NCBI GenBank assembly: GCA_006503475.1
Contig: RSEH01000364.1
Coordinates: 1 to 35,123 of the forward strand
From: Stentor roeselii
Lineage: Eukaryota; Ciliophora; Heterotrichea; Heterotrichida; Stentoridae
Reading direction: 5' to 3'
Length of the DNA stretch: 35,123 nucleotides
The notes under the pieces are model-generated. The model worked only from the letters and a program-made list of their open reading frames with translations, was not told the DNA's origin and searched no databases. Below are positions 1 through 14,700 of this stretch, piece by piece (within the stretch, counting starts at the first letter, position 1; each line of letters starts with the position of its first letter). Both the position numbers and the translations under genes were made by a program.

Positions 1-2423
1 CCTAAGTCATGTGCGAAACTTTCCCTAATCCAACTCAAGTCCTGAGAGACTGAGTATTTGGTATAAAGTTTGATAATATCGCAGAAACAAAGCATTTTCG
101 TTTTTAAGATTAATAGTTCCCCTAGCCTTAAGTCATTTTCAATAGTTTGCAATATACCATTAGCAAATAAGTAAGCATATTTAGCAAATGATAAATCGAA
201 TTTTTTCTCCATTAAACTTGCTTTTATGAAATGCTTAACGAAGAATTTTTGAATAAGACTACTTTCAAAAAACATATTAGCGTTGCTACCTAAAATTCAT
301 TGCCTTAAATACATGTTCTTGAATGAAATCATACTTTGTTTGTTATTTGCTTTTAGCTTTACAGATTCTAATTTAATTTTAAGCATTTTATAATCTTCAT
401 AAAAATAAGGAGTGCGAAATTCTCCCAAAATGTTAATGCATTACTTACAGGTTTAATTTGAACGACAATTTCAGTTGCAAGTTTCATAAATATTTTAGTC
501 CATATATTAAGGAGATCATCTTATAAGCTGGCATTGGCAAGAGAACTTATTCCTGAAATTTGCTCACAAGCTTCAAATAGTTTTGTTAGTTCCTCCATCA
601 ATTTATCACAAGTAATAATTTTAAGTGCTTCGCTAATAGAACTTACTGAACTAATAATTTTTTGGTTTCGTATAGCTCAATAATCCAAGTTCGCTCTAAA
701 CTGCTATCAAGTTCAAATAGAGACTGGAAGATCTTTTCTTTAAAAATTTTGTTTATTCGTGGGTCATTTATTACTAAGCCAGCAATCTTCTTTTTATAGT
801 CTTTTATAAACTGATAGTCGTAATAAATAGATTTTAGTAGCAAAGTGTCCAATACCTTTCAACGAAATTTTAAAAAAACTATTGAAATTGAATATTTTTT
901 CTTCCTGTACTCATTAAAAATTGTATTGAATGTTTTTTCCAGAATTTCTTTGTTGTCTTGGAAAAGGTCTTCAAACATTTTATACCTCCAACCTTTTGAA
1001 GAAATAGACCAGTGCTCTTTGTTCGTCTAATCTTTTTTGTTTTAGCAAAATACAGATATTTTTCACTATTTTCTGCTCGTCTATTTTCATGGCTTCATAT
1101 AAAGAGTTGATTAAGTGAATAATGAACCTGAAGTACTGATGTCTCTTGAGTTTTCAATTTCAAGCAAAAAAAGTGTGCAGTTCGAATCAGTTAAAAACTC
1201 TTCATATTCAGTTTTAAAATCCTGCTCAGACTTAAAATTGTAGCATTTTTTATATTGAGCATTTTGATTTAGTCTTTGTTTTATTGGTTCAATTATTGAA
1301 TCATCATAAGTAACTGCAATCAATTTTACTCTTTTCCCTTTGACTAGGTACCTTTCTCTATCACACAGCTTTGGCAAATAATCTTTAAACAATACATTAT
1401 TGAACTTTTTCCAGTCTTCTACAATACCCTTGTCAGTACTTCCCATTTCTTTAATATGACATAAAAATAATAAGTCCGTGCTTGCATTTTTCAATAAGAA
1501 TTTCTTGCATTTATTGAGAAGCTCACCTTGCTTTTATCTTCTCCTATAAACAGAATTAATAAGTTTATTGTTTCTTGGCTAAAAACAGGAAACTTAATGT
1601 ATTCTTAGTATTTTGAATGCTCATTATCATATTTACCCAATTACAGATCTCTTTTGATACTTCTAATGAAGCTGGTCTAATTATATCACTAAGACTGATA
1701 TAATGTTTTTCGAATCTATTTAGTAATGGTGGGTCTGCGGAGAGCAAATTAGACTCTTTGCTATCAAGGAAAACTACTGCTTTGAATTTCGAATGAACCA
1801 CACATATTGGGTTGAATTTTGGATTAAATCCAATTCGGCAGCATTTTCTGTTTACTTTTTCTGATGGTATGAAGGCCTGGTTAAATAAGTTGTATAAAGA
1901 ACTGTAAATGTAGTCAATGTTTTGGAAAATTACTGGACATCCCTTTTTTATGTAAAAAATTATTGATGAAAGGGTTTTAAATCTGATATTGTCATCGTTG
2001 ATGTCTTTTTCAAAGGAACTTCCACAATGTTTTGAAAATCACCAAATTCATTTGAAAAAATCTCAGTCTTTATGTACTCAAACACATCCTGAGGACAAAT
2101 AATCATCAAGTATCGTGCATCAAACTTATCAAGATTTGATTTAATATATAATTTAGGACATTTTGGTAAGTTATCACAAGTGATTGCTTTTCGAAAATTC
2201 TCATTTAATTTACTAACTGACGAAGGCAACCCATTGAAATTTCTGTTCAAAGCAGTATCAAAAACAAGATTTAAGTTAACTTGAGAGTCATCTCTTATTT
2301 TCTTGCAGCATATTTGATTGCGTGATAAAAGTTCCTTAATCAATAAAATTCTGGAAATTTTACTCCGTACTCTTTTTTGTTTATTCTGTAATAGTATTAT
2401 TTCACTAATCTCTCTATTATCCA
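1..2423 (-). other. Broken post-AAA4 to E3-shell segment of the RNF213-like pseudogene
   Basis: The residues RNFNGLPSS (2221-2247), a GCPVIFQNID element (about 1920-1945) and LLNRFEKH (1702-1728) follow the order seen in RNF213 after its fourth AAA module. The helical stretches read in shifted frames from about 1570 to 1, including a long run from about 415 to 1 with a single TGA near 297, look like eroded E3-shell sequence, but I cannot align them confidently. No RING or RZ zinc ligand cluster is visible before the window ends, so the catalytic end is either outside the window or lost. Confidence 0.65.
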
Positions 2424-3792
2424 TGTGTATTCTCTTGCCTCTTGGTATAAAGAAAATATAGATTTGCTGTCTCCATTAACTCATTTTCTTCAGGGTCAGG
2501 TCTCGCTAAGTATAATGCTCGGTTCATTTTAGAAGCATCTAGTCTCCAATATGAAATAGCTATAAACCCAAATTTGTAGTTTTCGTATTCCTATAGCTTT
2601 GCAGCACTTTCAATCGATTGTTAACTGAAGCCTCTGCAAATCCAATTTCATCTATTAAGACTACTGGTAAACTATCTTCAATCCTGGACAATAAATTTTG
2701 AGCCTTTATAAAAACTTGTTAAATTTCTTCAGACGTACACAAATCATATCCTTGAAGGTTTACTTATTAGAGTTCAGGAAGAGTTTGGAAGTATTTACAT
2801 TTGCTTTTAATTCCTTTAAGACTCGAATAAATCACTTCTATTGCTAAATTCTTACTACTTCCTGGTTTTCCACAAATGGATATGGGGATTTTATTGATGA
2901 TGCAAGGAACAATAGCAAAGATATTATCAATTAAAGCATGATTGGGTGCGATTTCTTTATTGATGTTCATTCTGCTTACAATTTCAAGCTCTTACCACCT
3001 AATAAAAAGGTAGATATGATCTGCAGTCACCATAAACTCATTATAGCAGCATACCTTGACCATAAGTTCAATAATGCTTTCTCTAAATTTTTGGCAACTT
3101 AATCTCAAATAGTAACAATAAATAAATGATATAAGCTCTGGTATTGCGTTTTTAATATTATCAAGCTTATTTATTTGTTCACTACATTTAGCATATTCAT
3201 TCAAAGGCTCATCGATTTCAAATTTTTCCCTTTCTTCTATTGAAACAACGAACCACTTATAAAGCAAAATAAATCTGTTTACGTCTCTTAGACTCACACT
3301 GATTACATCTTGATTTTTCTGAAAAAAATCATGAGCTGCGCATATCAGATCAGTTAATAAGCATGCTTTTTTCACTTGAGCTTTTTCAAGCATACTTCTA
3401 ACATATGCCTTGATTTCATTTTCCTTAAGTGAACCAAAATCCCAAATGTACTCAATCGCTTTATCAGGTTAGGCTTAACCAAATGCACAAGCTGAGCATT
3501 AGAATTTTTTTCTTTATTCCAACTTTTTGATCAAAGTTTACCCTTGCCTTTAATCTGTAAGGATTGCAAATTTCAACAAAACCAAGTTAGGGTGAAGCTC
3601 AATATTATCATATCTTCTTTCGCAAATGACTGAGACGATATCTCCGATGCAATCACTTGTATTAAACTCATCAAAGGAGACCCAAACTCTTTGATTGTCA
3701 TTGGCTAATTCATTCGCCTTAATGAGGTGCTCTTTTATTTCCTCAAGCTTGGTTTCTGAATGAACGTAAAATATCAAAAATGGCTCCTTCAA
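2424..3792 (-). other. Broken AAA3-AAA4 segment of the RNF213-like pseudogene
   Basis: Three open stretches in different frames carry the Walker B of one AAA module (core FDEFNT, near 3661-3684) and both Walker motifs of the next (GKPGSSK near 2847-2876; LIDEIG near 2632-2663). Between them are the family's NPYRLK, EYIWDFGSL and SLRDV elements. NPYRLK (near 3550-3565) is read only after a one-base shift from the preceding frame. The Trp-Asp-Phe element near 3440-3455 needs another. TAA codons at 2992-2994, 2764-2769 (a tandem pair) and 2719-2721 lie in the frame that carries the AAA4 motifs. The motifs are well kept although the frame is lost, which suggests recent decay. Confidence 0.8.
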
Positions 3793-5300
3793 AATATTTT
3801 CAATAAAAACCTCATTAAAGACGTTTTACCACATCCAGTTTCTCCCATAATTATAATCGGTAATCTTGAAATGCATCTTAAATAAATCAAATTCATCTTT
3901 AAAAAGTTATCAGGTGTTAAGACATATCCAGTTTTAAGTATTTGATCCAAACATGACTGAATAACATTATCAATATCTTCTTCTCTATCAATATAGTCTT
4001 TCAATGAGAATTTCTTATAAAACCTTATGAGCTTTTCGATTAGCTGCGAACTTGAATAACTATTGTAATCTTCTATTGAGTTATCTGATTTTTCTGAACT
4101 TTTATTAGAGAATTTGTCATAAATTTCCTTTTGGCTTGTAATAAGTTTCTTGAAACTTGGAATAATATATTCAGGATCCCTGTAAATGCTCATGTAATCT
4201 TCTTCTAAGAAAATCATAATCAAGTGATTAGAGTTTTCCCATTTTATTGTATTTTCTATCAAGAATTCTTTGCCTTTTTCTTTTTTCCTCATTTCTTTAG
4301 AATTTTGATTCATTTTTACATTATCGATACATCTCGAAGTGAACTCTTTGCTGGTTTCTACTAAAATCAAAGCCAAGCTTTCCCTCAGGTCTCCGAATTG
4401 ATAGAAGTTTTGGTTTATTATATTTGAAGAAAATATACTTAACTCGAAATTTTTAAAAAGCATCGTAAGGACGTTGAGAAAAGATGACAGCTGATGGAAA
4501 TTCGGAAAACTATTGCAGCAAGGCAAAAAGAATTCTTTTAGAAGTTCAATATCGGTGTTTTTGCCGTAATAAATAGGTTTTGAGTTTTGACTAAATTCTA
4601 TATCCCTATATCTAATTCTTTTCTGGTTGAGCAAGTACAAATAATTGCACACATAAACAGCTTCATTTGAAAATCTGATTTTTTCCAAGCTAAACTCTTT
4701 GATTTCTTCAGTCTGTAAAAAACTTAAAAATTTGACGCTTTCTAATAGTCCATTTTGAAAGCTACTGTCGACTTCAATGTAAACATATGAGTCTTTAGGA
4801 ATCATTATAATAGATTGATCACTGTAAACGATTTGGAATATAGCCAAGTTAAAAATGAATTCATGGAAGAACTCAGGTTCTGGCAAAAAGTTCAAATTGA
4901 GTTTATGCAGTCTTTGGGGAGACTCAAAAAAATTTTCTAATTTCTTTGCTAAACTTTGATTATCGAATGTACCTGAAATATTGATTTCACTCAAAGTAAT
5001 TTTTTTCTTTTTAGCTTCTTCGTGAATCAGGTCAGACTTCCCAAGGCCAACACAAGCTGAAGTTACGACCACTATATTCTTAGAAACTTGATGTACAATT
5101 CTTAAGATATCTTCTTTCGAAAGCATCATATAGTTCCAAATTCTGTAAATTTCAATATTTCTTTTGTAACTTAAGCTGCCGACTAGCTTCGATTTGCAGT
5201 CACTAGTTATTATTGCTAGAGAAAAATGAAAGCCTTGTTCAATATAAAGGCTAATTTTTGACCTGATTTTAGATTGGCTTTCTAATTTAAGCCTTTCTGG
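3789..5300 (-). other. Undamaged AAA block downstream of the TAG (RNF213-like AAA modules)
   Basis: After the TAG at 5301-5303 the same frame continues open for 57 codons to the first downstream ATG at 5129, then 446 more to a TGA at 3789. No other lesion lies in these roughly 1.5 kb. Near 5040-5075 is a P-loop-like motif with the core GLGKSD, taken by order as the first ATPase-type module here. At the end is the classic GETGCGKTS Walker A of the third RNF213 AAA module, followed at once by a frame break in a TTTT run. One added T would continue the family sequence into the next frame. If the protein were made from 5129 or by reading through the TAG, it would stop just after this Walker A, without the matching Walker B. 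Confidence 0.75.
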
Positions 5301-8300
5301 CTAGACTAAAGTATATATTTCTTTGTTAGGGTTCAGGTAACTTCTGTTCAAAAAGCGCTTTATTTCTAGCCAGTCGGTTGAATAGTGACAGAATAAAACT
5401 AGTTCAGCCCGAGGTAGATTCAGCTGATAGTTTGCATAAATTGTAAGAATTCCATTATAAAACTCTTTTGTTTCTAAAAGTATTATTGTGTTCTTGTCCA
5501 AGCTCTTTATTGGGATCTTCAAAGGAAACCTGATTACATCTTCTTCACTTTCCAAATTTTGTAAGAAGTTATCAATGCATTCTAATTGATCCTTTATTTC
5601 AATCGGAAGATCCTGGACTTCCCCTGTAGGAATTGGTACTTTTTTGCTCATATACTTAAACACCTTGAAAATCTTACTTAAATTCAGTTCACTTTTATCA
5701 AGCACAAACTTGTGAAACAAATAAATCATTTCCCAACTCAAGAAATTAAAAAAATAGCTTCTCTTGCTTATGTCTCTCAAGGCCTTTTTCCATACATTTT
5801 TCAGCCTATCTTCTTCTATTTTGCAATAATCCACAAGCTCGCTATAATTTCCTTGCTGCACACTAACTCGATACTCTTCTTGCAAACTTTCCCTACACAA
5901 CGAACTGGCAACTTCATTTAAAACATCAATATACTTACTTAATGTGTTCATGAAAGAATCAAACCCCTTAAACATTTGTAAGTCTTTGCTGATGTCTTCA
6001 TTAATATCTGTTCTTTTCTGATTGATCAAATTGATATTCAATAAAGCGCTGTCTCTCAGTTCCTTCAGTAAATCCATAGAAAGTGGAGTTAGAGAGTTCA
6101 AGTTTTTCGGGTTAGCCACTAGAATTTCAGCCGAGTATATATCTTTCCTAATGATTTTTAACTCAGAGTCTTTAAAAATCCCTTTAATCTTATTTTTTTT
6201 CATCTGTTCAGGCTCAAAAATCGAAGTATTGAACTCATCCAAAGCAGTAACTTTATATTTGCATTCATTAATAATTTCGAGAATAGTTGAGTACTTCTTG
6301 GTATGCATTAATTCTGAGATCTTGCTTAAATAACTTTTGAGGTTCTTCATAGAGTTCTTGATGATATCCAAAAATGACCAAAGACTTGAGAATTTTTTAA
6401 TGAGGTCTAAAGAAACTTCTTCGTTGTCTATATTCGGGTTGTATACTTCTTGCCAAATTTTTAGATCTTTTTCATCGACTGAATCTGCAAAAATAATCAA
6501 ATCCGCACTTTCAGCAACTAAATTTAAGAAATTTTTTAGTGATTCTAAGTCGTCATTATTTAACGATTCGAGTTCATCTTTCCTTAAGATGATCTGAGAA
6601 TTTGATAGTTTCCTAGTATATTGGTCACTTTCTGAATACAAATATTCTTCAAAAAGCTCTCTTGGTATCTTGAGAACTTTGCTTGAAGCGTCCAAGAATT
6701 CAATCAGAGACTTGAAATCTTTTTGATATTTATTGAAAATAATTCCTAAATCATTTAGTTCCTTTTCCAGTTCTGACCCAGGTTTGAACAGTTCAGGCAA
6801 GCTTTTTTTAATTAAAGCAATTTCAGTCTCAATCGAACTAGAATCATTTAATTTATCGAGTACATCTTCTATCTCTCTTACAGTGAGATCCTTCCGATCT
6901 ATCAAACCAATCAAAAATTTTTCAAGGAGACTATGAGCAGAATTTAAGCAACCTCCAATGTCTTCCACAAACGTAGGACCTTCTTTGTTTACCCAGTGCG
7001 CAAAAATCTTGGAGTGCAGAGGATACTTTAATAGATCTTTTAACTGATTATAAGACTGTGGCAGTATGAGTTCACACAATTTCAGATTTGGATAATTATT
7101 GATGAAGGATTGGAATTCTTTCAATTTTTCAGATAGTTGGGGAAAGTCAAACGGAAAATCTGTATTCAGCTGCTTGAGTTGGTTTAAAAATAGAAGTTTT
7201 CCTTTCGTATTTTCTTCGATTTGCAAAAATTTTTTTTCGAAATGGAACTTATAAATTCTAGCGTTGCTATAGCTGTGCATGATGTACTCTAAAAACAAGT
7301 TTCGCTTTTCAGGGCTGAGGTTGATAATGAACTCAAAATTTTCGATTAGTAATTCTTCATTTATAATTTCATTTGCTATTTTCTTGATGAACTCAAATAC
7401 TTTTTTCAGATAATTTTCATTATTTTCATCCCTTATCAGCTCCATCAAGATGTCACTCTCTTTAGGATCAACAATGATTTTCTCATACAATTCTTTTTCA
7501 GTAAATCTCAAGTAATCGTTTTCGACGTTTAAAATGTCGTCGATTATTTTACTCTTTATTCTTTTTTTTAGTGATTTCAAGTAGTCAATAGTGTTGTTGT
7601 ATTCTTCCCTGTCATTGCTCAGCAGTTTTTCTCTGAATACTTTTTTATAGACAAACTCTAATATTGGAGATAATTTACTAGGTAAGTTACAAATGAGTGA
7701 TTTTAATTGGGGATTACTGACCTGATTAAAAATCCACAAGTACGAACTCAGTTGAAGATTTTCAGGTAAACAACTTACTTCATTTTCGATTGCTTTGATC
7801 CACTCTTTTGATCCAGTATAATTATAGGAATCAATATAGGATTTAATTATTGCAGGAACTGATTCTGGCACTTTAAGTAGCAATTTAATACATTGATTTA
7901 AGCCATGGATCTTCGTTTGCTTTATTAAGAAATCTTTTATTTCCAGTATAAGATCTAATTCATCAGTCATAATCTCATCTAATATCAATTCGATCACGGG
8001 AAATTCACTTTTGTCCACTGTCCTACTTGTAAACAAATGCTTCTTGATAAAATTTGATATTTCCTCAATGTATTTAATGCCTTTCAAATAAATATCTTTT
8101 TCTCTTAAAAATATCAAAAAATTCAGCAGTTCCTTCTTACTTGGACTCATCACATTTAAAATTTCTCGCAAAAATGTTTTTCTCTCCAGAATTCTTTTTG
8201 AGTCAAATACAGGATTTAATAAGAACTCGATTTTATTTTCATGACTTTCGATTATCCTCATGATTTTGCTTAGAAACTTTGTTTTTTGCATTTTGGAAAA

Positions 8301-10454
8301 GGTAGCGATAAAGGCCAATATAAAATCTATTTCATCGCTGGCAAAATAAATTCGGTTTTTGATCAGGTTTTTTATGTAATTAACAATCAGATCGCTGAGG
8401 AATTCATAATCTATAATTGAATCAAAGAGATTTATTGTTTCCTGGTAGGCTATTCGATAAAATGCAAAAATTTTTGATAAGCCTTTTAATGCTAAACGGA
8501 AATTGGCTTTTGATTTTAAGTAAGGTATATAAGATTCTGAGTAATTTCTTATCAAACTAATAATTTTTTCTAGCACGTCTGGCTGAATCTTTACGTTTTC
8601 TTGGGTTAGCGATTCAGTCAGTCCAAGCAACGACAAGCTTAAATAGAGACTTTCAATGTCTTCTGTTTTAAATCTCTTGAAAAACTTAGTATTTAGTAAA
8701 TTCATAATCCTTTCTTGACCTTCTACTCTTCTTTCATAGTTACTTTTTTCTAAGTTATCAAAAGCTTTGATAAGGTCCTCTAATGCCTTTTCAGTCAGAT
8801 TATTCAAGTGTTTCATGCAAGTCCTCAAGTATATATACAGCTGAAGATAATTATCAGTAAAATGATTGAATTTATTTTCGAAGTTCCACCCAATTTGGAA
8901 ACGTACATCAAATAAGAACTCGAAATCTAAATTCCCGGCTATTCTATTGGATTTCTCAGTGCAAGCATTGTCGTTATACCTCAATCCTAAAGAATATATT
9001 TGCTTGTTTGGCAATAAAGTTTTGAACATAATTAAATGAGCAGATAAATTGGATTCTTTAAACTTCAATATCATTTTTTCGCTAGTGATTATACAAGTCT
9101 CATCTTTTAAAGAGAAGGTAATTCTTTGAGAGTTTTCAGCTAGATAGCACAAGAAAACAAACATTTTTTCATCTTTTTGTTGCTGGATTAAGTTCATTGA
9201 TAAGTTCGGAATAATTCTTTTGTTTCTTTCAAGTACCACGAACGACTTCATCCCAGTTCTCGAGAAATTTTCAATAAGATTTACGCAGTGCTTATTTTCT
9301 TCTAAACTTTCAATCTTTTGATTGATTTCTCTAGTACAACAAATGTCCATAATTTTGAGCTGGTAATAAAACTCTTTAGTTGATTGAAATCTGCTAACAC
9401 TCAATATCGAAAATATTTTTTTCTCTTTTTTCTCCTCTAGTCCCACAAGAAGAACTAAGAAGTTTTTGTTGGGGTCTTTATTCAGATCGGCATATTGGTC
9501 ATAGTCTTCAATGCCAAAGCCTTGAGCTAGTATGACAATTTTATTCAAGTAAAGAGCAAGGGTTTCATCATCAAATTCTTCAAAGATCTTAAGGACGTTA
9601 TTTTCAATCTTAATCTTCCAATTTAATTCAAGCTTAGAAAAAACATCAAAAGTAAGTTCTTTTTTCAGCTGCATTTTGAAATACTCAATTATTATTCTCA
9701 TCCAGCTCATTTTCTCTCTCTTGCTGATTTCAAGTAAAGTCAAGTATCTGTCCATGTCCTCTCCAATATGATTCTTTAGAGTCATTAGTTCTGGAGATAG
9801 TTCATTCAAAGGCTCTGCTAGGACTTCATTATATATAATTTCACCAGGAATAAAAGCTTCATTAATAAAACTGACTATGCACTCGCATTTTAATTGTTTA
9901 AAAGATTCTATTTTTCTTGAATCTCTGCAGAACTCTTCTATTATCAGGCTTAAGTTTTTATTAACTTTGCTCTTTTCCCTTGTTCCTACAAGAATTTTCA
10001 AGCTCAAAGGATTCTGCTGTACGATGATTATACTTATCAACTCAGCATCGGCTTCGTTTAGCACACTTAATGACCAGTACTTCTCTCTTTTTTTCTTAAT
10101 ATTAAACCTGCCTGTCATTAAGTTAATAAAGTAGGAAATATATTCCTTTTTATTTTGTTTTAACTTCATGAAGTCGTATGCTTGGGTACTTAAAATTATT
10201 TCCCAGATCGGTTTAATCTTCTCAAATATTTGAACATTTTTGCAAAGGCTTTGGCCTAATATATTAGGACTATCGCTAAGTAACTTCAAAAAGACCACAT
10301 CTTCCCAATCGATTCTCTTACGATATTCAATTTTATAAGCCTCAGCAGCTCTTTCACACGAAGGTTTTATCAGTTGTTCTAGTTCCCACTGCCTTTCTTT
10401 TTTAGGCGATATAGAAACTCTTTGATTCCTAGCTCTCTGCGGCCTATTTCTCAT
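5301..10454 (-). CDS. RNF213/mysterin-like N-terminal stalk protein, stops before the AAA core
   Basis: An uninterrupted frame of 1,717 residues, starting at the ATG at 10452-10454, which gives a basic N-terminus (MRNRPQRARNQR). The protein is helix-rich, Lys/Glu/Leu/Ile-rich, with no signal peptide, membrane segment or zinc cluster. It carries no motif I can name over its first 1,600 residues, as expected for the fast-evolving RNF213 stalk. The assignment rests on the last 60 residues (ELVLFCHYSTDWLEIKRF and on), which match the segment just before the AAA ring in RNF213, and on the ATPase motifs that follow in the same frame downstream. It ends at TAG 5301-5303, in the middle of a conserved element (after KEIYTLV), so the stop looks premature rather than native. 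No GT...AG intron of 15-16 nt removes this stop. The product, if made, would lack ATPase and ligase activity. It may be a truncated survivor, a new stalk-only protein, or a pseudogene too young to have decayed. Confidence 0.7.
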   Translation of the reverse strand: MRNRPQRARNQRVSISPKKERQWELEQLIKPSCERAAEAYKIEYRKRIDWEDVVFLKLLSDSPNILGQSLCKNVQIFEKIKPIWEIILSTQAYDFMKLKQNKKEYISYFINLMTGRFNIKKKREKYWSLSVLNEADAELISIIIVQQNPLSLKILVGTREKSKVNKNLSLIIEEFCRDSRKIESFKQLKCECIVSFINEAFIPGEIIYNEVLAEPLNELSPELMTLKNHIGEDMDRYLTLLEISKREKMSWMRIIIEYFKMQLKKELTFDVFSKLELNWKIKIENNVLKIFEEFDDETLALYLNKIVILAQGFGIEDYDQYADLNKDPNKNFLVLLVGLEEKKEKKIFSILSVSRFQSTKEFYYQLKIMDICCTREINQKIESLEENKHCVNLIENFSRTGMKSFVVLERNKRIIPNLSMNLIQQQKDEKMFVFLCYLAENSQRITFSLKDETCIITSEKMILKFKESNLSAHLIMFKTLLPNKQIYSLGLRYNDNACTEKSNRIAGNLDFEFLFDVRFQIGWNFENKFNHFTDNYLQLYIYLRTCMKHLNNLTEKALEDLIKAFDNLEKSNYERRVEGQERIMNLLNTKFFKRFKTEDIESLYLSLSLLGLTESLTQENVKIQPDVLEKIISLIRNYSESYIPYLKSKANFRLALKGLSKIFAFYRIAYQETINLFDSIIDYEFLSDLIVNYIKNLIKNRIYFASDEIDFILAFIATFSKMQKTKFLSKIMRIIESHENKIEFLLNPVFDSKRILERKTFLREILNVMSPSKKELLNFLIFLREKDIYLKGIKYIEEISNFIKKHLFTSRTVDKSEFPVIELILDEIMTDELDLILEIKDFLIKQTKIHGLNQCIKLLLKVPESVPAIIKSYIDSYNYTGSKEWIKAIENEVSCLPENLQLSSYLWIFNQVSNPQLKSLICNLPSKLSPILEFVYKKVFREKLLSNDREEYNNTIDYLKSLKKRIKSKIIDDILNVENDYLRFTEKELYEKIIVDPKESDILMELIRDENNENYLKKVFEFIKKIANEIINEELLIENFEFIINLSPEKRNLFLEYIMHSYSNARIYKFHFEKKFLQIEENTKGKLLFLNQLKQLNTDFPFDFPQLSEKLKEFQSFINNYPNLKLCELILPQSYNQLKDLLKYPLHSKIFAHWVNKEGPTFVEDIGGCLNSAHSLLEKFLIGLIDRKDLTVREIEDVLDKLNDSSSIETEIALIKKSLPELFKPGSELEKELNDLGIIFNKYQKDFKSLIEFLDASSKVLKIPRELFEEYLYSESDQYTRKLSNSQIILRKDELESLNNDDLESLKNFLNLVAESADLIIFADSVDEKDLKIWQEVYNPNIDNEEVSLDLIKKFSSLWSFLDIIKNSMKNLKSYLSKISELMHTKKYSTILEIINECKYKVTALDEFNTSIFEPEQMKKNKIKGIFKDSELKIIRKDIYSAEILVANPKNLNSLTPLSMDLLKELRDSALLNINLINQKRTDINEDISKDLQMFKGFDSFMNTLSKYIDVLNEVASSLCRESLQEEYRVSVQQGNYSELVDYCKIEEDRLKNVWKKALRDISKRSYFFNFLSWEMIYLFHKFVLDKSELNLSKIFKVFKYMSKKVPIPTGEVQDLPIEIKDQLECIDNFLQNLESEEDVIRFPLKIPIKSLDKNTIILLETKEFYNGILTIYANYQLNLPRAELVLFCHYSTDWLEIKRFLNRSYLNPNKEIYTLV

Positions 10455-10607
10455 ATTTATAAGAAAAATAGATAGATTGGGATTAATTCGAGGGAAATTT
10501 TTTTTTTTTGTTTCGAATTTTTAATTTCTTTTGGGAAATTATAACTTTCAAAGTTTAAGAGTTGTTTTTAGAACAATAGTTATTTTTTTATCGATGACAG
10601 GGAATTC

Positions 10608-10679
10608 TTTCTACAAAATTTCCAAAATTTCCAAAATTAAATATGGATTGTTTCTATAAAATCGTGGATTTTGTAGAAA
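10608..10679. repeat. 12-bp inverted repeat with internal AAAATTTCC tandem
   Basis: TTTCTACAAAAT at 10608-10619 is matched by its exact reverse complement at 10668-10679. The 48-nt spacer contains AAAATTTCC-type units in tandem directly after the left arm (about 10616-10636). It lies about 155-225 nt upstream of the ATG of the RNF213-like gene, where a promoter or 5' leader could be. In DNA this AT-rich, an inverted repeat of this length may be chance. Confidence 0.4.
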
Positions 10680-11316
10680 CATAAAAGAAACTTATATCTT
10701 AGAGATAATAAATATGGTATTCAAAAATTAGCTTTTTGTTTTAATCATTCTTTTATGATGAAACTGTCTTTTATCCCAGACTAATGCAAAAATTAAAAGC
10801 CTATAGTTAATTAGCTGACAGAAAGATATTATAAATAGATTTATTCCAAGTATAAACTAATTTGTGTATTTTTACTCAGATTTAAAGATTGAGGACACTG
10901 AGAATTTACAATTTATAGTAGACTTAGTTTTAACACAATATATTTAGCTCATAAATGAACTTAAATTCATATGACTTAGAATATCTCATTAATTAGAATA
11001 CCTAAGTGTCCAGTATGTATTCCTCATATTCTCCTCTAATTTAGGTTCTATGAGCATTTAAATGACCTTCTGAGCTTAAATATTAACTTTAGATTTATTG
11101 ACTAATTTCTATTTTTTCATGTAATCTTTCCTAGATTAGTGTCTTTCATTCAGTCTATCTAGGACCTTAGAAACTTAATAGGCTGCTCATTATAAACTCT
11201 GATATCAATCAAACTTTGTTTAGCTCTAATTTTAATCTTCACATATATTTAGAATCTCTTAAGAGTGAAAAGATATTATCCATCTCGTGATCCACTCACA
11301 CTTATTGACTCTTCAA

Positions 11317-11383
11317 TTCAAACATCAAGAATCAATTAGTCTCTAATGTTTGAAGAATATAATTTGTTTTGAGATTGATTCTT
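11317..11383. repeat. Two interleaved inverted repeats (pseudoknot-like order)
   Basis: TTCAAACAT (11317-11325) pairs with ATGTTTGAA (11346-11354). AAGAATCAAT (11327-11336) pairs with ATTGATTCTT (11374-11383). The arms alternate (a, b, a', b'), the order of an H-type pseudoknot, or two mutually exclusive hairpins if the spacing forbids both. There is no neighbouring gene start, and no known RNA family was recognised. Confidence 0.35.
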
Positions 11384-11751
11384 TGTTTAATTTAATGTTT
11401 TGTGATATTGTTTTGGGCTTTGTTTGGTTTGAATGCTGTAACTATATGATGAGAAGGTTTGAGTAAATTATCTCTCAATTCTGAATGATTTATTGTTTTA
11501 GTTTGACAAAAACCACAATTAAAAAACAAACAGTCATGATTTAAATCAAATCCTACTTCTAAGTAATTTACTTATATTTATCTATAATAAATCATATTTG
11601 TGAATAAAATGTTCATCCTTATTTAAACTTGAAAAATTCCTCAATCATATAATAATCAAATTATTGACAAATTAGAATAAAATCATTGGAAAATATCAAA
11701 ATTTTTCTCAAATATATAACAACAATCTGGTGAATCTAACTTAATATTAAA

Positions 11752-14700
11752 CTAAATTATTGATTTTTTTTCTTCAGTTTCAATAGCAGCTTGTTCTATA
11801 TCAATGTTTTTTACAAAAATTTGATCATTTTTCGAAGTCATACTAGTTACTTTTAAAGCTTCAACTTTTTTTTTATTTCTATACTTTCTATATTTTTCGA
11901 TTCCCAAGGAAACTATTTTGGCAATAGTACAAACGATATTCAAAGCCCATGCAAGAGTAATGATATTTATACAAATATCAGTGGCATTAAACTTAAAATC
12001 GTTTTTATTTTTGACAAGTGCTATGATTATCGTTATATGAAGAAAGCCTGTCAAAACTTCATTAGAAATATGAAGCAAGTTGTTTATTTTACTAATAAAG
12101 CATCTTGTTTCTAAAAGGTAACACAAATTCTAATTTATCATTACCATCAAAGAAAAAATAAATGAAAAAGTAAGCCTTAAAATAGGAACCTGAATCAGAA
12201 ATATTGCCATTGAGACTGCAATTCTTCTAACAAAAAACAGAGGGTAAAAATAAAGATTGATGTAATCATCTGAATCGAATTCCTTAAATAATGCTCCAAA
12301 TTTTTTATCAAACTTTTGAATTTCTTCTATCGTCTCAAGCTTTTGTCGCTTTTTAATTAGAACTAAAGTAATTAAAAAAAGTACGAACTGTAAGATCTAA
12401 GTATAAGTTACGATGATAATCACAGAGCAGCAGTAATCTGCAAAATAAAATAATCTTTTAAAGTATCCATGAAATAAAGCATTCAAAGAAGTAATTAGCA
12501 GGTCAAGGCAGGTCTGAATCCAGAACTTTAGAAAAATTTCATAATGGAAGTACTCCTGAATGACTATAAGCTTAGGCACCTTTTGATGAAACAAAGGAAT
12601 AGTAATATTTGTAAGGAAAAAGCAAAAAAGGATAATCAAAAATATAAGAATACTAACACCTGAGTTGATAATCGCTGAATTGCTTTTATACCCATACTTG
12701 ACCAGGTTATCATTCAGGTCTATTTGCAAACTATTCTCTGAAAACCTATCAAAAACGTTGGGGAGGGACTTTTGCACTCTAACTGATCTCAAAAACTCCA
12801 GCAGGTCATCTTCTAATTCAAGACCATATAAAGAAATAACTGAGAATATTTCAGCAAAGTTTACAAAACTAAATAGACTAGAAACATCAAAACTTGCTAC
12901 ACTTAAACACAATGAAACACTTGCACCTACAGTAGTACCTTTTTCAGCGATATCCTTCGAGCGTTGAATTTTCACCTCATAATCCTCAATATTATTAGGA
13001 AACAGTCCTATGGTTAAGTTTTTGGTGATGAGTAAAGAGTTGTAAATTGAAGTCACAGGTCTTAAAAATTCTATTCTTATTGAACTTCCAAGTCGAACAT
13101 TCCAAGTGATTTTACATTGAACTGAGGTGATTGACTGGTTTTCAGCCCAAATTTTAAATTTACAAGGTTCTGCATTGTAAAAGACTTGCACATCTTCAGT
13201 CGTCAGCTCTTTGCCAAGTGGTTCAGTGAAAACTATCTGAGCTGAATTATCAAGACTAATTTTAATGACTGATCCGAAAAGAACTCTTTCACAATAAGTT
13301 TCGTTCAAATAGTACCCAAGAGAGCAAATGCATGTTTTGTTCTGAACTTCAGCATTTGCATCACAGGAAAGACATTCAAACTCACTAAGACAAGTGACAC
13401 AAAGTCCTTTACACCCTTCACAAAGTTTACTTGAAACATTATAAAATACAGTTCCTTCACATTTTTTACATATGCCTGATGACAGCTGATACCCTGCCTT
13501 GCATTGAGTGCAAGATCCTGAATTAAAATCAAGACAATTCAAACATTCACTATCAAAGCACATGCCGCAGGTTGAACTATGTCTGCAGCCAGAACCACAT
13601 TCACTCATGCACAACTTGCAAAATTGTGAATATTTGTCAAAGTAATGATTTATTGAGCAGGTTGACATACACTCCCGGCCAATTAAGCACAAAGAACAGC
13701 CTTGGCAGTTACTTGAAACCATTAAGTTTGATGAACTAGCATTTCGTCTCAGGTCAATCTTGTAAAGAAAACCTTGGAATGAGGTCTGCTTTTCACTGTC
13801 AAAACCAAGAAGGATTTTATTATCGTCTTGGCTTATGAAAGGCTCTTCTGAAATGCTCCAGAAAGTTTTCTTATCTAAGTTTATGAAAAAAGATGCACAT
13901 GTCGGAGAACTGTGGCTTAAGGAAACAGCTACAAGTGTCCAGACCTCCAGAGGAACTGTTTGATTTGACTTCACTTCGGTTAAATTGTTAGCGATAAACA
14001 GAAAAAGCGATAATCCTTCATCGTCGAAGCTGAAAGAAATTTCGGTTAAGTTACTTGCAACTGAAGATGATCTTATTAAAGCCCCTGCATTGGCGTAGCT
14101 CCTAATCCAAAAAGATAAAAGAAACTCATCGGAAAATAAACGATTTTTCTGCTCAGTACTTCGGATCATCATGCCAGAATTCATTCCGTTAAAATAAAGT
14201 CCTTGGCCATAGACTGGAACAGGTAGACTTAAGTTTAAATGATTTGCAGGTTCTAATTTTATCCCGAAGACCTTATCAATATAAACAGTTGAAAAATAGC
14301 TAAATTCGAATCTCATCACTTCGCCTTCAGAGTCCTTCATGATGCAGACTCCTCCTCGATTGACATAGCCTAATGGACATTTATCAATGCAGAATTGTCC
14401 CAGCAAGACTGAATTGTTACAACTTGTACATGAAAAGAAACTTTCATCATTGCAAGTTTTACATTTTTCATTGCATTTTAGGCAAAAATTATTTCTTTCG
14501 AAGTAACCTTCTATACATTTGCATGAGTTGTTTGTATAAATAGAATTTTCTGGGCAGAAATAACAGTCTGAACTGCATTTATCGCATTCTGTTAAGTTGA
14601 ATGAATTGCAGTTTAGACAAAATTCAGAACAAGGAAGACAGGCTTCAAAATGATTGTCCCAAAATAAAGGTGGCTCACATTTACACTGACCTTCATTATT

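Follow-up and report, generated by a model that had tools for sequence, protein, structure and literature searches.

A 3'-collapsed RNF213-like gene of Stentor roeselii with a front half probably kept under selection

The window, that is, the whole stretch of DNA analysed, is the entire 35,123-bp contig C304 of Stentor roeselii. Its minus strand carries an RNF213-like gene that starts at ATG 10454 and is cut by the contig end at position 1. Between 1 and 3807 the former frame of this gene was aligned with 16 frameshifts and nine stops; between 3808 and 10454 it holds no frameshift and one stop, TAG 5303-5301. The gene is probably a 3'-truncated member of its family, the front half of which stayed under selection at least until recently. 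The lesion pattern, the common phylogenetic position of both parts and an independent open half-gene elsewhere in the genome (C231) were observed directly. A retained 5' part is the most likely explanation, followed by a join of two copies and a wholly dead pseudogene, with sequence error the least likely.

The window gene, its family and its neighbours

The searched assembly comprised 522 contigs (44.4 Mb), and all contig names used below (C9, C231 and others) refer to this genome, which shows features of a heterotrich ciliate (standard code, 15-nt introns and CCCTAACA telomeres). A search for three CCCTAACA repeats returned 547 places; among the contigs listed (at least 15), the places lay at contig starts, or near the ends of C9, C36 and C57. 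C304 bears telomere repeats at neither end. RNF213-like genes on C57, C106, C36 and C9 lie 2.6-14 kb from telomere-bearing contig ends.

Domain borders applied to the window gene and its paralogs were those of mouse RNF213, given in PMC7311170 as N-arm 1-1290, linker 1291-1774, AAA1-6 1775-3405 (AAA3 insertion IR3 at 2487-2538), hinge 3406-3588 and E3 3589-4926. The window frame is open from ATG 10454 to 3792 apart from the TAG, and three parts were distinguished, all on the minus strand. The open 5' part (5301..10454; 1,717 codons from ATG 10454 to TAG 5303-5301) was taken from the ORF list and aligned to full-length paralogs. It is homologous to the paralog N-termini and corresponds, by position only, to the N-arm, the linker and part of AAA1. 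Scans of this part returned no Pfam match and, even as a seven-sequence profile, no PDB match up to E = 1 that would tie it to the helical-bundle N-arm stalk of RNF213, so that the labels 'N-arm' and 'linker' are positional. The open middle part (3789..5300; 503 codons) spans AAA1-AAA2 and ends just past the AAA3 P-loop (GETGCGKTSLMRFLL). It is 36-46% identical to the seven closest paralogs, and its translation includes an AAA2-type P-loop, GLGKS, also present at residue 1902 of paralog C9. When 3792-5300 was compared with the RNF213 chains of the PDB (phmmer), a match of E = 2.3e-6 was obtained over the AAA3 P-loop. The matching portion was residues 457-500 of the middle part, and its GETGCGKT P-loop, which aligned to residues 2352-2395 of the 5,161-residue chains, is read as that of AAA3. 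The retained stretch, from the N-arm position through the linker and AAA1-2 to the AAA3 P-loop, comes to 2,221 codons. The collapsed part (1..3807), delimited by paralog alignment, covers the remainder of AAA3, AAA4-AAA6 and beyond; the contig end cuts the gene near column 3611 of the closest paralog's 4,874. According to PMC7311170, two AAA units (AAA3 and AAA4) of RNF213 are catalytically competent. The window gene has neither, since its frame breaks past the AAA3 P-loop and both the AAA3 Walker B and all of AAA4 fall in the collapsed part. The RZ finger region falls past the contig end.

Identity of the family as RNF213-like rests on phmmer matches to the PDB RNF213 chains and on a zinc finger. 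Kinship in the AAA3/AAA4 core appears in the window match above and in paralog C9 over AAA3-AAA4 (phmmer, E = 2e-74), and C9 also carries an RZ-type zinc finger (PF20173, E = 1.9e-10). Pfam returned no CBM20 or RING in the stretches scanned. The genome was searched with the middle and 5' parts of the window gene and with the AAA3-AAA4 and C-terminal parts of C9. These searches gave a minimum of 21 loci containing the AAA3-to-AAA4 stretch or its borders, and 16 of the 21 are single frames of 4,173-5,139 aa; the remaining five are C185 (3,739 aa), C231 (2,382 aa), C74 (2,409 aa), C501 (483 aa) and the window gene. Ten full-length paralogs were read and aligned.

Several of the shorter loci were inspected individually. 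In C185, a lone in-frame TAA (C185:3481-3479) is followed by a continuing open frame, comparable to the TAG at window 5301, and may be a polymorphism, a read-through site or an error. C501:6124-7592, on a 10-kb contig, is a family fragment with an internal deletion and a frame change, a decaying member whose two long pieces share 56-67% identity with C154. The C74 locus (C74:33711 to about 40940) begins with about 340 N-terminal residues of its own, with repeats that are MORN-like by eye and without a Pfam match, and continues with family sequence only from behind the AAA4 Walker motifs.

The gene next to the RNF213-like gene (19383-11752, minus strand) encodes a cysteine-rich laminin-G-like membrane protein and has two 15-nt introns, at 12411-12397 (GTAACTTATACTTAG) and 12144-12130 (GTAATGATAAATTAG). 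Scripted removal of both stretches left a 2,533-codon frame; ORF callers will cut this gene short at the two introns. According to PMC9505925, Stentor coeruleus has the standard code and short introns (15-16 nt), and in most of the 15-nt ones the branch-point A sits at position 10; both introns of the neighbour gene have an A at that position. C304 further carries a dynein heavy chain frame of 4,238 codons. An intergenic element of about 135 bp (11375-11510) recurs in at least eight further genomic copies (70-81% identity) and had no Rfam match at gathering score. In the window as a whole, no Rfam family reached its gathering score and the tRNA scan returned zero.

Lesion pattern and the stop at 5301

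Lesions were placed by aligning the gene, with frameshifts allowed, to a profile built from seven intact paralogs of the same genome; GT..AG introns of 15/16 nt were permitted. The first lesion in gene order lies at about 3806. Four other scoring settings or references, applied to 5600-1 only, gave, up to position 3807, 14, 14, 16 and 16 frameshifts with 10, 10, 9 and 9 stops; none of them placed any lesion except the TAG at 5301 in 3808-5600. A search of the same genome, reading 2023-3807 as one match, showed one TGA, three TAG and 11 TAA. An earlier note had counted about 13 frame changes and seven stops in 1-3793 and a single TAG in 3794-10454. The alignment raised the first two counts and left the TAG alone upstream, and the asymmetry held against the profile of intact same-genome paralogs. 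Tiny introns were considered as a source of the frame changes and rejected, the alignment having used none in the window gene, and a different genetic code was rejected on account of the dynein frame (4,238 aa) and the full-length paralogs, which are open under the standard code.

Lesions are evenly spread inside 1-3807 (KS p = 0.45, 25 positions), and under even scatter the probability of at most one of 26 lesions falling in 3808-10454 is 1.8e-10. For the collapsed part, with 4.9% of random substitutions yielding a stop, the nine stops correspond to about 0.050 neutral substitutions per site (0.023-0.094).

The TAG (5301..5303, minus strand) stands in a column occupied by N, Y or F in ten paralogs, and a 15- or 16-nt GT..AG intron does not fit there. 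The 1,493 bp between it and 3807 hold no lesion, against 9.8 expected at the rate of the collapsed part (P = 5.5e-5). Because 1.5 kb behind the TAG is free of lesions, the TAG is not an old end of a functional protein, and a functional end as old as the 3' decay was excluded on this ground. The TAG must be young: by arithmetic the upper 95% limit for the lesion-free stretch is about three lesions, which puts its age at no more than about one third of that of the 3' decay.

The favoured reading is a sequence of steps. A once full-length RNF213-like gene would have lost its 3' part first, through a truncation that closed the reading frame at the AAA3 P-loop or close by (about 3806-3789). Selection on the downstream part (the rest of AAA3, AAA4-6 and E3) would then have ended, and this part would have drifted neutrally to about 5% substitution (2-9%). 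Throughout this period, or for most of it, purifying selection would have continued to act on the 2,221 codons upstream (N-arm position, linker, AAA1-2). The locus would presumably have gone on making an ATPase-dead, E3-less half protein. By the estimate above, the TAG would have arisen much later, at most in the last third of the decay; it could be a sign of final loss, a polymorphic site, a read-through codon or an error in the sequence. The earlier note had proposed that the stalk half is still selected. Retention is the best explanation of the pattern, and the retained unit exceeds the stalk, running through AAA1-AAA2 to the AAA3 P-loop. Several points weigh against retention: the TAG interrupts the retained frame, the collapsed part forms a non-telomeric contig end, where a misjoin or chimera is possible, and the dN/dS ratio, the losses of invariant residues, the residue comparison with the C507 relic and the tree support of the middle part, all given below, count on the same side.

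Copies, substitutions and rival origins of the collapsed part

Trees were built separately from the 5', middle and collapsed parts, and in each the window gene grouped with C9 and C138 (support 100, 87 and 100). A chimera of two different family branches was rejected because the trees of the three parts agree, the middle part with a support of only 87. When the assembly was searched at the DNA level with window 1-6000, no further copy above 76% identity was found. The search with 5000-11800 returned one relic of the window gene, C507:708-970, which is 86% identical over 263 bp to window 7222..7483 (minus strand), contains two stops and adjoins C-terminal family pieces bearing stops. The whole of C507:1-970, at the contig start, is an internally deleted relic of the branch of the window gene with several stops. 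A second copy of this branch therefore once existed and then decayed.

It is possible, though unlikely, that recombination in the cell, or misassembly, joined an intact or young copy to the 3' portion of an older pseudogene from the same branch. Such a join would agree with the sharpness of the boundary (about 3806), with the former existence of another same-branch copy, whose remnant at C507:708-970 lies beside C-terminal family pieces, and with a contig that ends inside the gene without a telomere. Against it, both parts group with the same paralogs, the two DNA searches of the assembly found no intact 3' part and no decayed 5' counterpart, the 263-bp relic being the only other near copy, and the boundary coincides with the first frameshift, as expected from truncation. 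Of the suggestion in the earlier note that a fresh gene copy was joined to an older pseudogene, only this same-branch form keeps some weight.

In its collapsed part the window gene has lost 18 of the 156 residues that are invariant in all 10 paralogs; the corresponding losses are 1 of 41 (middle) and 2 of 11 (5'). With two divergent paralogs omitted from the reference set, the losses were 113/427 (collapsed), 24/149 (middle) and 45/134 (5'); against the same set, C57 and C96 lost 108 and 104, 28 and 34, and 45 and 47, respectively. The 5' part lost 16 of 65 residues invariant in seven paralogs and resembles divergent intact paralogs in this respect. Relative to the mean of C57 and C96, the window branch measured 0.88 (5'), 1.08 (middle) and 1.25 (collapsed, the longest). 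The excess loss of invariant residues in the collapsed part is real in direction and modest in size, and the case rests mainly on the numbers of stops and frameshifts.

Whole-gene dN/dS was ruled out because the closest full paralogs share only 26-46% identity, and the calculation was confined to a 251-bp segment of the C507 relic. Window and relic differ there at 34 positions (12/6/16 at codon positions 1/2/3), giving dN 0.124 and dS 0.224 with stop codons omitted. The ratio of about 0.55 would not indicate strong purifying selection unless the relic takes most of the change. Within the 251 bp two stops fall in the relic and none in the window copy; under neutral evolution of the relic, most of the nonsynonymous change would be its own. 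At the 22 differing residues, the window residue occurs in paralogs in 13 cases and the relic residue in eight, a weak indication that would fit constraint on the 5' part of the window gene.

Neutral decay of 3808-10454 was simulated with the indel rate scaled with the substitution level d. At d = 0.05, 21.6 stops and 28.0 frameshifts were obtained, at the lower bound of d = 0.023, 10.4 and 12.8, and at d = 0.01, 4.6 and 5.5; one lesion was observed. Among 2,000 runs, counts as low as this never occurred at d = 0.05 or 0.023 and had P = 0.0005 at d = 0.01. The earlier note had judged the lesions too unevenly placed to come from neutral decay of a single whole pseudogene, and the scatter probability and the simulations bear this out. 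That the whole gene is dead, with its 5' part spared by chance or very recently dead, is accordingly an improbable explanation. The TAG does break the 5' part, and further family relics are known (C507 and the frame-broken, internally deleted C501 fragment). A neutral pseudogene should carry lesions across its entire former frame, and 1 of 26 falls in 3808-10454; equal ages of the two parts are rejected by the simulations. The pattern would fit only if the 5' part had died very recently, and it would then have had to be retained until that time.

Least probable is a consensus error at the contig end that made the lesions. The 3.8 kb at this contig end does hold all lesions but one, and 14 of the 16 frameshifts score as -1. 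The nine stops, however, imply about 190 substitutions (90-360) against 16 indels in 3.8 kb, a ratio from which the error profile of long reads differs; inferred substitutions exceeding indels several-fold argue against a simple consensus error. As a control, of the ten paralog ORFs read, four (C96, C106, C57 and C511) reach to 1.3-2.9 kb from a contig end and are unbroken, the C96 end being non-telomeric; at the opposite end of C304, the dynein ORF remains unbroken up to 0.55 kb from the terminus. Two damaged loci near contig starts detract from this control: the lone TAA of C185, 3.5 kb from its start, and the C507 relic.

Half-length members and comparison with RNF213

C231 is an open half-length member of the family. 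Its frame of 2,382 aa was taken from the search rows, and its last 837 residues and stop (TAA at C231:12385) were read directly. It covers the N-arm position, the linker and AAA1-3, is without AAA4-6 or E3, and is 23-27% identical to ten paralogs. In its AAA3 the P-loop is kept (GGRGTGKTS), the Walker B DEFN is replaced by DSFG with loss of the glutamate, and the CNP motif is replaced by CRD. In the 1.4 kb downstream, no frame matched ten paralogs at E 0.01; the opposite strand of this interval carries a YSPTSP-repeat frame. As the C231 frame ends after a catalytically altered AAA3, half-RNF213 genes exist in this genome, and the stalk-side relative without an enzymatic half that the earlier note had envisaged has here an example with an open frame and a clean stop. 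According to PMC7311170, a gap in the AAA ring of mouse RNF213 divides AAA1/2/3 from AAA4/5/6, and the end of C231 after AAA3 coincides with this division. C74 is the converse of C231, but the comparison did not support it as the other half of a gene split with C231: it is closest to C187 (45% over 421 residues, with 763 of its 2,409 residues read), and its family part begins behind the AAA4 Walker motifs.

A half protein from the window gene would most likely have served as a target-binding arm without enzymatic output, whether as decoy, scaffold or brake on full-length relatives. For human RNF213, PMC11549300 describes coats whose growth is driven by cooperative incorporation and requires ATPase activity, and an N-terminal region under positive selection. 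By analogy, an arm-only half protein could bind targets or full-length partners without output and so act as a decoy or brake.

We suggest tentatively that enzymatically dead half-RNF213 proteins (N-arm and AAA1-3, no E3) constitute a functional class next to the 16 or more full-length members, with C231 as the established case and the window gene as a second, independent one whose tail is decaying. If this is true, such proteins would be target-binding decoys, scaffolds or dominant-negative partners of the full-length ligases. RNF213 has mostly been studied in vertebrates, as a single giant protein. A genome with at least 21 family loci, some of them halved, would provide natural separation-of-function variants. 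The halves could show what the N-arm and the first half of the AAA ring do without ATPase or ligase, and whether they antagonise the full enzyme. Among the literature matches listed, a search whose scope leaves out most subscription journals, no half-RNF213 protein was reported; ciliate RNF213 genes did not appear by title or abstract start, and RNF213 combined with Stentor gave no match.

The closest known system is RNF213 (mysterin), the giant E3 ligase of animals. The AAA3 P-loop region of the window gene matches its PDB chains, C9 matches over AAA3-AAA4 and carries the RZ finger, and the full paralogs are of similar total length. The window copy differs in having lost AAA3 past the P-loop and everything after it, and in an N-arm without a sequence match to solved RNF213. 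C231 resembles the window gene in its N-arm position, linker and AAA region and in the absence of AAA4-6 and E3 from the open frame; unlike the window gene, it ends later, after AAA3, at a clean stop, and the 1.4 kb read behind this stop yielded no remainder of the family. In 3'-truncated genes and decaying gene tails generally, an open 5' frame is followed by a 3' remainder that is collapsed from the first lesion onward. The window gene shares this open 5' frame and departs from the general case in its unusual scale and in its extra, young in-frame TAG.
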